Part shown: positions 50,768 to 60,614 of the stretch, piece after piece
How positions within the stretch are numbered: the stretch's first letter is position 1
Layout: every line of letters starts with the position of its first letter
NCBI GenBank assembly: GCA_003142255.1
Contig: PLLO01000016.1
Span: 124,001-188,000, forward strand
DNA length: 64,000 nt
Source: Bacteroidales bacterium
GTDB taxonomy: Bacteria > Bacteroidota > Bacteroidia > Bacteroidales > VadinHA17
Direction: 5' to 3'
Made by a program: the position numbers and the translations under genes
The notes under the pieces: model-generated
Databases searched by the model: none
The model's input: only the letters and a program-made list of their open reading frames with translations
Told to the model about the DNA's origin: nothing

Positions 50768-50848
50768 GGGATGTTAGCTCAGTTGGTTCAGTCCGCCAGC
50801 CGGCGGATGACAGGTAAGAAGTCACTGGTTCGAATCCAGTACGTCCCA
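50768..50848 (+). pseudogene. tRNA gene disrupted by a palindrome (probable tRNA-Val(GAC))
   Basis: The outer parts fit a tRNA: acceptor GGGATGT/ACGTCCC, D-loop start TAGCTCAGTTGG, a perfect T arm ACTGG-TTCGAAT-CCAGT, and variable loop AAGTC. The 3' half of the anticodon arm (TGACAG then GTAAG) implies anticodon GAC. But the 3' D-stem and the 5' anticodon strand, about 10 nt, are replaced by the palindrome TCCGCC-agcc-GGCGGA, giving 81 nt. The molecule cannot form a normal cloverleaf. CCA is not encoded. The anticodon assignment is tentative. Confidence 0.6.
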
Positions 50849-50911: not shown

Positions 50912-51042
50912 ATGCAAATTTATTTTGCCTCAGCAGTGGAGACAGACAATAAGTCTGTTGCACCATTGTCGCACAAATAGAGTCAATAAAAAAACGTAAC
51001 TCATTGGTTTATAGTTGAATTCCGCTTTGTTTTTGTGATCCC
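50912..51042. repeat. degenerate copy of the element's right end
   Basis: ATGCAAATTTATTTTGCCTCAGC (50912-50934) differs by one base from 60388-60410. Both are followed by a short hairpin, and the segment ends with TTTGTGATCCC (51032-51042), identical to the first 11 bp of the att repeat. It is therefore a likely scar of an earlier related insertion. No gene is present. Confidence 0.55.
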
Positions 51043-51045
51043 AAA

Positions 51046-51371
51046 GGGATTATTCGCTACGCTCATGATCCCGCTGACAGTGGATACAAAACAAACTATG
51101 CCGCAGCTGACGCTGCATGTCATTTTTTGTTTTCATCATGGAATCAGGCCATCAGGCCTGTTCCGTTCTTCAAACAAAAAATGCTCCTTTCGGAGCATAT
51201 TGTAGAAGGGGATTATTCGCTTCGCTCATGATCACTTTGACAGAGGATACAAAACAAACTATGCCACAGCTGACGCTGCATGTCATTTTTCGTTTTCATC
51301 ACGGAATCAGGCCATCAGGCCTGTCCCGTTCTTCAAACAAACTATGCTCCTTTCGGAGCATAGTTTGTTTT
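51046..51371. repeat. two tandem copies of a 163-bp palindrome-rich unit
   Basis: Units start at 51046 and 51209; landmarks recur exactly 163 bp apart (CAAAACAAACTATG at 51087 and 51250; GGCCATCAGGCC at 51147 and 51310; ATGCTCCTTTCGGAGCAT at 51181 and 51344). The unit is not a multiple of three and carries no sensible gene. It abuts the left att site. Confidence 0.85.
51335..51370. repeat. perfect 16-bp hairpin next to attL
   Basis: AAACAAACTATGCTCC and its exact complement around a TTTC loop, ending at the left att repeat. Confidence 0.8.
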
Positions 51372-51415
51372 GTGATCCCGGGGGGATTCAAACCCTCAAC
51401 CTTCTGATCCGTAGT
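51369..51415. other. attL (left 47-bp att repeat)
   Basis: Identical to 60537-60583. It carries the 3' end, T arm and anticodon-loop part of tRNA-Arg on the minus strand and then diverges inside the anticodon stem. Confidence 0.88.
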
Positions 51416-53934: not shown

Positions 53935-54903
53935 ATGGGGACAAAGGTAGAAATTAAACAGGGTACGGACCTGAATCAAAATATTGACTTTTTGATTGCA
54001 AAACCCGTTAACGAATGGATCAAAGAGGCCAGCCTCAGGGAGACACCCAGGGACCTGTTTAATAAATTAATTTATGAGGGAGACCTGGGAATATTATTTG
54101 CCTCATCAGGTGCCGGAAAATCAATCTTAGCATGTCAGTTTGCAGACGAAAACAGCAAAAATGAGATTGTGCTTCTCCTGGATTGCGAACTTTCGGATAA
54201 ACAATTTCAGCTAAGATATACAAACGAAGCTGGGGATAATTATCCATTTAAAGACAATTTCATCAGATTAGAACTTAATCCAGATGCAGATAAGCCGGAA
54301 AAACTGACTGATGAAGATTTCCTAATGCAGTCAATTGAGAATTGCGTTACCACCACCGGGGCGAAAATTCTTATCGTGGATAACATTACCTATCTGAGGC
54401 AAGACACCGAAAAGGCAAAAGAAGCCCTTCCCCTGATGAAAAAATTGAAGGCAATAAAGAAAAAATATGATTTAACGGTGCTGGTAATTGCACACACACC
54501 CAAAAGAGACGCAACAAAACCAATTTCGCAAAATGATTTATCCGGTAGCATGATGCTTTATAATTTTTGCGATCAGGTTTTCGCAATCGGAACAAGTAAC
54601 GCGGATCCCAGCTTAAGGTATATAAAACAATTAAAAACAAGGTACACGGAAACCCTTTACGGGGAAGATAATGTGATTTTATACCAGGTTGAAAAAAATA
54701 ATTGTTTCCTGGGATTCACTTTTCTGGGATATGGGAAAGAGGCCGATTATCTAAGACAATTATCCGAACCAGGCAAAAAGGATTTAGAGGAGCAAGTAAA
54801 CGTCCTGCACGGGCTGGGAAAGAGTTTACGTGAAATTGCAAAAGAGTTTAATATTTCCCCTTCAAGGGTGTACCGGATAATAAATAAGCCTCTAAATAAG
54901 TGA
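53935..54903 (+). CDS. RecA-fold replicative helicase (RepA-like) with C-terminal HTH
   Basis: A 322-residue ATPase. Walker A is ASSGAGKS (56-63), Walker B is ILIVDN (145-150), and the layout matches RSF1010 RepA-type hexameric helicases (AAA_25). The C-terminal ~40 residues add a helix-turn-helix (GKSLREIAKEFNISPSRVYRI), so the helicase may bind its origin directly. Its stop codon lies in the first iteron of the array that follows. It belongs to the HTH-helicase-primase operon. Confidence 0.85.
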   Translation: MGTKVEIKQGTDLNQNIDFLIAKPVNEWIKEASLRETPRDLFNKLIYEGDLGILFASSGAGKSILACQFADENSKNEIVLLLDCELSDKQFQLRYTNEAGDNYPFKDNFIRLELNPDADKPEKLTDEDFLMQSIENCVTTTGAKILIVDNITYLRQDTEKAKEALPLMKKLKAIKKKYDLTVLVIAHTPKRDATKPISQNDLSGSMMLYNFCDQVFAIGTSNADPSLRYIKQLKTRYTETLYGEDNVILYQVEKNNCFLGFTFLGYGKEADYLRQLSEPGKKDLEEQVNVLHGLGKSLREIAKEFNISPSRVYRIINKPLNK

Positions 54904-55116
54904 AACAGTGAAACAATACATAAATAACTAATAATAAAATGATTAAGTGTTTCAGAGTGTTTCAGAAGTGTTTCAAAGTGTTTCAAAGTGTTTCAGTGAA
55001 ACAGGCCTTAAGTGTTTCAGGTGAAACAGTAGTGAAACAGTACGAACATTTTAATAATGAATCATTTAACCCCAGAAACGAGGGTGTTTCGTTTCAGAAA
55101 GTGAAACAGTGAAACA
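54901..55116. repeat. TGTTTCA/TGAAACA iteron array, putative replication origin
   Basis: Six copies of TGTTTCA (starting 54948, 54958, 54969, 54979, 54989, 55013) and seven of TGAAACA (54901, 54909, 54997, 55022, 55033, 55102, 55110) occur in 216 bp, with two variants near 55085-55096. Five forward copies are spaced 10, 11, 10 and 10 bp, one helical turn each. The array sits between helicase and primase genes and includes the primase start codon, so it could be both origin and operator. Confidence 0.8.
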
Positions 55117-56368
55117 GTCAATTTTAAATATTACCGTGTCCGGTTTTGAGAATTGTAAAAGCATATCCCCGAAAGAAGTTAATCTTTTGTCCTGGCTGAC
55201 TTCAGATAAATACCGGGATAAGGTCGAGCAGGTGCGGAAAATTCAGGATGAGAATATACAAAAAGTAATTAAAGCCTCACTTCCAGCGATAACTCCTTCC
55301 GGGACATTCAGCACACGATCAGAAAAGGGGTTAATAGAACATTCAGGATTCATGGCATTTGACATAGATTTTAAGGACAATTCCGATATAACCAATTTTG
55401 ATGAACTAAAAAAACAGCTCAGTAAGTTATCAAATGTAGCTTATTGCGGTCTGTCCGTTCGGGGTCGCGGCTTCTGGGGTTGCGTCCCCATTCCCGGAAG
55501 CACCCCCGAACTTCATAAACAGCGTTTTAATGCGCTTGCAAAAGATTTTAAAGATATGGGAATTGTGCTGGATCCTTCCGGAAGTGATGTTTGCAGGTTA
55601 AGGATTTACAGTTTTGACCCCGAAGGCTATTTTAACCACAATGCGAAACCGTACACAAAGATACTGAAGCCCCAACCAAAGAGAACAACCCGTCCGGCCC
55701 TTACCGATTCCAGGGAACGTGTCGAGGCTGTTATAAGCCAGATAAAAGAGAACAGAATTGATATAACACAAAGTTATAAAGGCGAATGGTTCCTGATTGC
55801 TTCCGGTATGGCAAATGAGTTTGGCGAATCCGGAAGGGGTTACTTCCATGCGGTCAGTAGGTACCATTTAAAATATAATGAATCAGAAACAGACCGAATG
55901 TTTGATGATGTTTTGAAAAAAACCTATTCTAAAATAAGTATTGGATCCTTCTTTAAAATTGCTTCAGATTACGGGATAAAGCAAAATATCGCAAAGGAAT
56001 CTATTGATGAAATAGGTGAATTTGATATTGAAGTAAAAGAGAAGGAAGCGGAATGGCTCAATGAATTTTATCCGCATGGAGTTAGGTCGGATAACAGAGT
56101 TGCCAAAATGGAAACTGTGAAAATGCCAGCCACAAAAAAAGAATCGGCACCCGGTCCCTGGGATCAGGACATAACAGAGCTGGAACAATTCTTTAATGCA
56201 GTAGGGCTTCCTGAAGCACACATTCAGCTCAGTGCAGTCGAAAGGATAACAGATCCCTCTTTGTTCATTAAGACACACCTGGACATTGTGAAGGGTCAAA
56301 ACGGAAATATGAGATATGCACCTTACCTGGAACGGCTGAAGGAATTAAGAACAATATTAAGCAACTGA
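55109..56368 (+). CDS. primase-like protein with BT4734/VirE-N and PriCT-2 domains
   Basis: A 419-residue protein. Residues 1-190 match the BT4734-like (VirE N-terminal) domain, with GFMAFDIDFKDN, GLSVRGRGFWGCVPIPG and DPSGSDVCRLRIYSFDP. Residues about 205-295 look like PriCT-2 (GEWFLIASGMANEFGESGRGYFHAVSRYH). Such proteins are primases of Bacteroidota mobile elements. The start is GTG at 55109, inside the last iteron; no in-frame ATG exists before a stop at 55058. Expression may thus be controlled by binding to the iterons. Confidence 0.8.
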   Translation: MKQSILNITVSGFENCKSISPKEVNLLSWLTSDKYRDKVEQVRKIQDENIQKVIKASLPAITPSGTFSTRSEKGLIEHSGFMAFDIDFKDNSDITNFDELKKQLSKLSNVAYCGLSVRGRGFWGCVPIPGSTPELHKQRFNALAKDFKDMGIVLDPSGSDVCRLRIYSFDPEGYFNHNAKPYTKILKPQPKRTTRPALTDSRERVEAVISQIKENRIDITQSYKGEWFLIASGMANEFGESGRGYFHAVSRYHLKYNESETDRMFDDVLKKTYSKISIGSFFKIASDYGIKQNIAKESIDEIGEFDIEVKEKEAEWLNEFYPHGVRSDNRVAKMETVKMPATKKESAPGPWDQDITELEQFFNAVGLPEAHIQLSAVERITDPSLFIKTHLDIVKGQNGNMRYAPYLERLKELRTILSN

Positions 56369-60387: not shown

Positions 60388-60536
60388 ATGCAAAATTATT
60401 TTGCCTCAGCGAGTTTTCAACAATAAACTCGTATGCAATAGTGTTTCAGAGTGCGGGTTAGAGTGAGGTTGTATGCAAATTGTGTGCAAACGATAAAAAG
60501 AAAGGGAGCTAACTTTGAGCTAACTCCCTGATTCTC
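60388..60536. repeat. right-end non-coding segment of the element
   Basis: It begins with the ATGCAAAATTATTTTGCCTCAGC block, followed by the GAGTTT...AAACTC hairpin and an AGTGTTTCAGAG segment that repeats the iteron motif. It ends at attR. No gene is present. Confidence 0.5.
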
Positions 60537-60583
60537 TTTGTGATCCCGGGGGGATTCAAACCCTCAACCTTCTGATCCGTAGT
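60537..60583. other. attR (right 47-bp att repeat)
   Basis: Identical to 51369-51415; overlaps the 3' part of the tRNA-Arg gene, which is thus intact on this side. Confidence 0.88.
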
Positions 60584-60614
60584 CAGATGCTCTATTCAGT
60601 TAAGCTACGGGACC
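60541..60614 (-). tRNA. tRNA-Arg (anticodon ACG)
   Basis: A full 74-nt cloverleaf on the minus strand: acceptor GGTCCCG/CGGGATC with discriminator A, D stem GCTT/GAGC, anticodon stem TCTGA/TCAGA with loop CTACGGA (anticodon ACG), T arm GAGGG-TTTGAAT-CCCCC with one A-C mismatch. CCA is not encoded. It is the integration site of the element. Confidence 0.9.

Follow-up and report, generated by a model that had tools for sequence, protein, structure and literature searches.

A heptamer array beside the gene of a RecA-fold helicase in integrated Bacteroidota elements: a probable replication origin, likely read by the helicase's own helix-turn-helix

The helicases Rep of SaPI and Cch of SCCmec elements belong to the DUF927 or D5/Primase_Cterm families, and the C-terminal domains of SaPI Rep and SCCmec Cch2 recognize iterons located just downstream of their own genes, according to passages of PMC7581432. 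The locus described here, in a 64,000-bp stretch of Bacteroidales DNA (hereafter, the window), shares with those systems, as those passages present them, an element-encoded helicase, short repeats directly downstream, a primase nearby, and an integrated mobile element as the carrier. C-terminal recognition of the repeats would be a further likeness, suggested here by covariation. The helicase core is different, being of the AAA_25 type (with KaiC, RadA, and T7 gp4 as neighbors) and joined to a resolvase-like helix-turn-helix (HTH); it was not assignable to DUF927/D5. Also unlike the SaPI and SCCmec repeats as presented there, the heptamers of this family occur in both orientations and change with a helix of the helicase across dozens of loci. 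In replicons of the RSF1010 type, a RecA-fold plasmid helicase (RepA) has a primase partner, and the iterons are bound by a separate initiator, RepC; here, the putative iteron-reading HTH is fused to the helicase. In classical iteron plasmids, the repeats likewise adjoin the replication gene, but the Rep_3 initiator is not a helicase, whereas the corresponding gene here encodes one. A Rep_3 domain was not matched among the ten element proteins scanned.

The closest known systems also include the Tn4555/cfxA mobilizable transposons of Bacteroides, whose plasmid-borne copies encode a helicase 45-47% identical to that of the window, preceded by an excisionase-like gene and, in L034 and L036, followed by a DUF6371 gene. 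Unlike in the window, their repeated word is TGGGACA, and a large part of the array falls within the helicase gene's coding tail. In L034-L040, which are of this type, the TGGGACA array in the tail encodes a VPSVPLSQP...GTMGQ-like peptide. A 2017 review (PMC5704250) dealt with the upkeep of excised mobilizable elements under a heading that called it an "unexplored world"; replication of SGI1 has since been reported (PMC7433901). In the excerpted text of that review, which names Tn4555, neither "iteron" nor "primase" was found. No title or abstract on the present helicase-heptamer system was found among the open-access papers searched.

The coordinates of the features are collected in Table 1. 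The array comprises 13 exact copies of a heptamer within 216 bp, six reading TGTTTCA and seven TGAAACA on the forward strand. Five forward copies are spaced by 10, 11, 10, and 10 bp, the first copy begins with the TGA stop codon of the helicase gene, and the TG of the primase's GTG start falls within the last copy. The number of copies and their two orientations, the spacing, and the placement of the two codons agree with the preliminary description of the locus. A near-copy (TGTTTCG) is found at 55085, and the bases flanking the heptamers are variable. Counted over the whole window, TGTTTCA occurs 35 times, and 100 shuffles averaged 14.25 copies; locally, its 13 copies compare with at most 4 for any 7-mer in 100 dinucleotide shuffles. 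Among the 7834 7-mer classes of the window, TGTTTCA is the densest in 220 bp, and the next seven listed overlap the same array. When a loose three-copy TGTTTCA pattern was run against the 3.73-Mb genome, it matched at five places, all inside this array, and no other cluster was found.

Table 1. Positions of the heptamer array, the helicase, and the other features of the integrated element in the window
Feature	Position	Strand	Remarks
att-like repeat, left element end	51369..51415		47 bp, identical to right copy
Tyrosine integrase, 417 aa	51548..52801	+	domain scan
HTH_17/excisionase-like protein, 111 aa	53588..53923	+	
AAA_25 (RecA-fold) helicase with C-terminal HTH, 322 aa	53935..54903	+	stop codon inside first repeat
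HTH helices 2 and 3 of helicase, codons 296-318	54820..54888	+	structure model, covariation
Helix 3, putative recognition helix, residues 309-316	54859..54882	+	structure model; helix 2 is residues 298-305
Heptamer (putative iteron) array	54901..55116	mixed	motif count, shuffles, genome pattern search
TGTTTCA copies	54948, 54958, 54969, 54979, 54989, 55013	+	
TGTTTCA copies	54901, 54909, 54997, 55022, 55033, 55102, 55110	-	
A+T stretch, 88%	54916..54947		candidate unwinding element between first two copies and main block; composition only
Primase, 419 aa, BT4734-like N-terminal + PriCT_2 + DUF6965	55109..56368	+	GTG start overlaps last repeat
Isolated AGTGTTTCAGAGTG copy	60440..60453	+	near right element end
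att-like repeat, right element end	60537..60583		overlaps tRNA-Arg(ACG) 60540-60614 (-)

The array is part of an element of 9.2 kb that has integrated at a tRNA-Arg gene, and the presence of an integrase and of flanking repeats at the tRNA gene identified the element as mobile. In a sample of 393 genomes of the order, 34 gave a helicase match with an E-value of 0.001 or better, its own genome included, and no such match was obtained in the two other genomes of the same genus in that sample; such patchy presence is expected of a mobile element. The element was not seen in a free form, which was counted against the origin reading given below. Adjoining the left att-like repeat is a 157-bp tandem duplication (51043-51362, 92%). 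An incomplete att-like copy lies at 51027, and a degenerate tRNA was called nearby at 50768; these are possibly the remnant of earlier integrations.

The window helicase was matched to PF13481 (AAA_25, E = 4.8e-16), PF02796, KaiC, and DnaB_C in Pfam. Its RecA core is of the Walker type, and G61, K62, D149, and N150 are invariant in 22 sequences. The structure model has a pLDDT of 85.4, and its best PDB matches in Foldseek include KaiC, RadA, and T7 gp4.

Relatives were sought by two routes. In the first, only the TGTTTCA pattern was used, and it yielded 130 loci (102 genome-contig and 28 viral stretches), 126 of which had ORFs of at least 120 aa. Many of the 130 matches were simple tandem repeats of 9-12 bp, including coding ones. 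A helicase profile detected relatives in five of the 126 (L126, L140, L189, L078, and L156), and TGTTTCA copies lie just 3' of the helicase gene in all five. L140, on a Phaeodactylibacter contig, has the same order as the window, i.e. helicase, 17 mixed copies, and BT4734-like primase; its helicase is 39% identical to that of the window, and its primase 50% identical over 193 columns, beginning at a residue nearly equivalent to the GTG start assigned here. Viral contigs scanned with single element proteins yielded no relative. Many loci come from metagenome bins, and host labels may err, e.g. Acidobacteria (L078, L156) and Azovibrio (L126). One Acidobacteria bin contributed five contigs with TGTTTCA arrays (L074, L118, L142, L156, and L157), and a helicase was visible only in L156 among these stretches. 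Downstream of the L126 helicase, a gene with a Fic domain lies between two TGTTTCA arrays (1280-1350 and 2751-2819).

In the second route, loci were chosen by the helicase. The core set comprised 71 helicase loci, window included, with profile scores of at least 330; the core counts exclude 30 of 101 loci, whose score was below 330 or in which less than 100 bp was present downstream. As only exact duplicates were removed, the 71 still include near-identical loci. The array region extended from -200 to +300 of the stop codon, and an array was termed significant when its density was reached by at most 2 of 100 shuffles, a threshold at which 1-2 of the 71 would be expected by chance. Significant 7-mer arrays were found around the helicase stop codon in 46 of the 71 loci, in 41 of which no shuffle was as dense; removal of the window and three motif-found loci left 42 of 67. 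At least five copies were present at 43 of 71 helicase stops, compared to 3 of 128 other ORF stops in the same loci. Of these three, one is another TGAAACA array of L126, one is a TGTTCAA array that immediately precedes the L217 helicase, and the last precedes the L253 helicase. No stop-codon array was evident in 18 of the 71 loci even at 6 of 100 shuffles. Upstream of the helicase gene, arrays were found in 6 of 68 loci tested (1-2 expected by chance), five of them among these 18, and the upstream words in L217 and L254 resemble those of loci with similar helices (L215 and the SLGAVNK group, respectively).

The place of the array is thus held more constant than its word. The elements have different heptamers, among them TGTTTCA, TGTAACA, TGGGACA, GTGAACA, GTACGCA, and CGGAAA; the commonest of the 24 top words, some of which are overlapping frames of one repeat, were TGTAACA (10 loci), TGGGACA (6), and TGAAACA (4). 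The first copy lies no more than 20 bp from the helicase stop in 33 of the 46 arrays, and the exact copies number 6 at the median and up to 17. Orientation is mixed in 41 of 46. The commonest same-strand spacing is 9 bp (84 of 186), and the phasing emphasized in the preliminary description therefore holds for the five window copies at 10-11 bp and not as a rule of the family. That description also counted a lack of motif conservation here in homologous elements among its refuting conditions. This refutation fails, though in an unforeseen manner: the position is conserved, and the word changes along with the recognition helix. Conservation of TGTTTCA itself had been tried as the measure and looked refuting, as L005-L040 have at most two copies per 250 bp; a de novo 7-mer count revealed other words in the same place. 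L010 departs from the 9-bp spacing, with head-to-tail 7-bp ATCCGCA units between the helicase and the downstream gene, and its HTH contains an insertion.

The variation of the word was compared to that of the helicase. For regional correlations, helicases at least 85% identical in the ATPase were dropped, which reduced 53 loci to 40. Motif similarity correlated with identity in residues 306-318 with the ATPase controlled (partial r = 0.362, 0 of 9999 permutations, n = 40), and the value without the window and the motif-found loci was 0.353 (n = 36). ATPase similarity with the helix held constant gave r = 0.011. Among other regions, the coefficients were 0.271 for helix 2, 0.125 for helix 1 (65 of 2000), and -0.176 for core residues 227-268. 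All residues (302 variable columns) were also scanned singly, without (n = 38) and with (n = 40) L010 and L209; an earlier scan had covered residues 150-322 only, with those two dropped. The top columns were 314, 298, 310, 253, 309, and 99 at n = 38, such that four of the best five are in the HTH, and 314, 298, 309, 99, 315, 310, 253, 299, and 312 at n = 40. Columns outside of the HTH (253, 99, 284, 288, and 161) also score, with z = 3.4-4.6; because of these and the helix 1 signal, some linkage or shared descent remains in the data.

Particular helices accompany particular words: xMKVxR is found with TGTAACA, KSTV/KSKV/KSSV with GGGACA, SLGAVNKYL with GTGAACA, SEGA[IV]RKW with GTACG, SDRQVRN with CGGAAA, and, in the window, L126, L140, and L189, S-x-[SA]-x-V-x-R with TGTTTCA. 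When each motif was predicted from the locus nearest in recognition residues, 5.02-5.59 of 7 bases were correct, compared to 4.3 with shuffled labels, the columns having been selected from these same data. L009, L010, L209, L025, L027, and L275 are misfits that have three or fewer of 7 bases in common with the nearest-helix motif; L271 and L272 have TGGCACA in common despite unlike helices. The word follows the HTH and not the primase. BT4734-like primases follow TGTTTCA arrays in the window and L140 and GTGAAC-type words in L210 and L211, and such words also occur with DUF6371 in L207 and L245, which argues that the primase is not the reader. The array beside the gene in most relatives and the covariation of its word with the recognition helix point to the helicase HTH as the likely reader, in line with the first of two readers proposed in the preliminary description.

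We consider, with a probability of roughly 0.7, that the array is the cis-acting site of a replication module belonging to the element itself. The helicase's C-terminal HTH would bind each TGTTTCA heptamer, and the bound HTHs would gather helicase protomers on the array beside the A+T-rich stretch, a candidate opening site. The gathered helicase would mark the origin and probably help to open the DNA, and the adjacent primase would then prime synthesis. Points against this reading are the loci that lack an array at the stop codon, the misfitting words, the scoring columns outside of the HTH, and the location of much of the array in the helicase coding tail of Tn4555-type elements. A self-recognizing helicase-iteron origin is the best explanation of the data, with binding suggested by covariation; by analogy with the systems cited above, the array is best interpreted as a replication origin where the helicase would collect.

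The strongest competitor, although an improbable one, is that the array is an operator to which the helicase HTH binds solely to autoregulate the helicase-primase operon, with the origin located elsewhere. The HTH covariation would be equally expected of such an operator, and the window array covers the primase start codon. However, usual operators carry fewer copies than these arrays, in some relatives the array extends into the end of the helicase coding sequence or precedes the helicase gene, and the domain that would read them belongs to a helicase. Repression of the primase gene from the array and a resulting coupling of copy number to primase supply, both suggested in the preliminary description, are no more than possibilities.

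Covariation might also arise without binding if the HTH-coding 3' end and the adjoining array were swapped together by recombination. The two are only tens of base pairs apart, and the weak signals in helix 1 and a few ATPase columns are of the kind that this would leave. Yet the residues encoded closest to the array (317-322) have no signal (r = 0.011), nor do columns 300-308, while 298, 309, 310, and 314 peak; moreover, MKV accompanies TGTAACA on unlike HTH backbones. We therefore regard such co-transfer as a distinctly unlikely sole cause. Reading by a host DNA-binding protein, the second reader named in the preliminary description, is very improbable: nothing was found in its favor, the word and a helix that the element itself encodes change together from one element to another, and a single such cluster was found in the host genome. 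Many motif matches elsewhere are simple tandem repeats, but a functionless expansion of that kind is the least credible reading here, given the mixed orientation of most arrays, their fixed position relative to the gene, and the covariation.

More broadly, a widespread class of RecA-fold helicases of mobile elements in Bacteroidota, and possibly other phyla, may be their own origin-recognition proteins, with an HTH that reads element-private heptamers and a helix-to-heptamer code that sets which element replicates, resulting in many compatibility groups; we give this generalization even odds. With the 9-bp spacing and a median copy number of 6, it is conceivable that each protomer of a hexamer takes one repeat. 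For a large group of elements, relatives of Tn4555 type included, the present system offers an origin candidate together with an initiator candidate, and the specificity code derived for the HTH is testable and would allow origins to be predicted from helicase sequences.

The gene downstream of the helicase was defined as the longest same-strand ORF within 900 bp, and 47 of the 74 such genes listed were scanned. DUF6371 was found in 32, a zinc ribbon in 30, and BT4734-like_N in 4; judged from these domains, the downstream genes are mostly primase-like. Arrays were also observed in a set of distant viral AAA_25 proteins from IMG/VR (L221-L238), mostly of ca. 620 aa, whose genes are followed mostly by GTAAAA-type arrays at 9-bp spacing. 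Just after the helicase stop, none of 100 shuffles was as dense in 16 of the 17 listed loci, and one was in L230. These arrays are perhaps the same type of origin in phages. The two viral loci scanned (L221 and L226) encode toprim-AAA_25 fusions.
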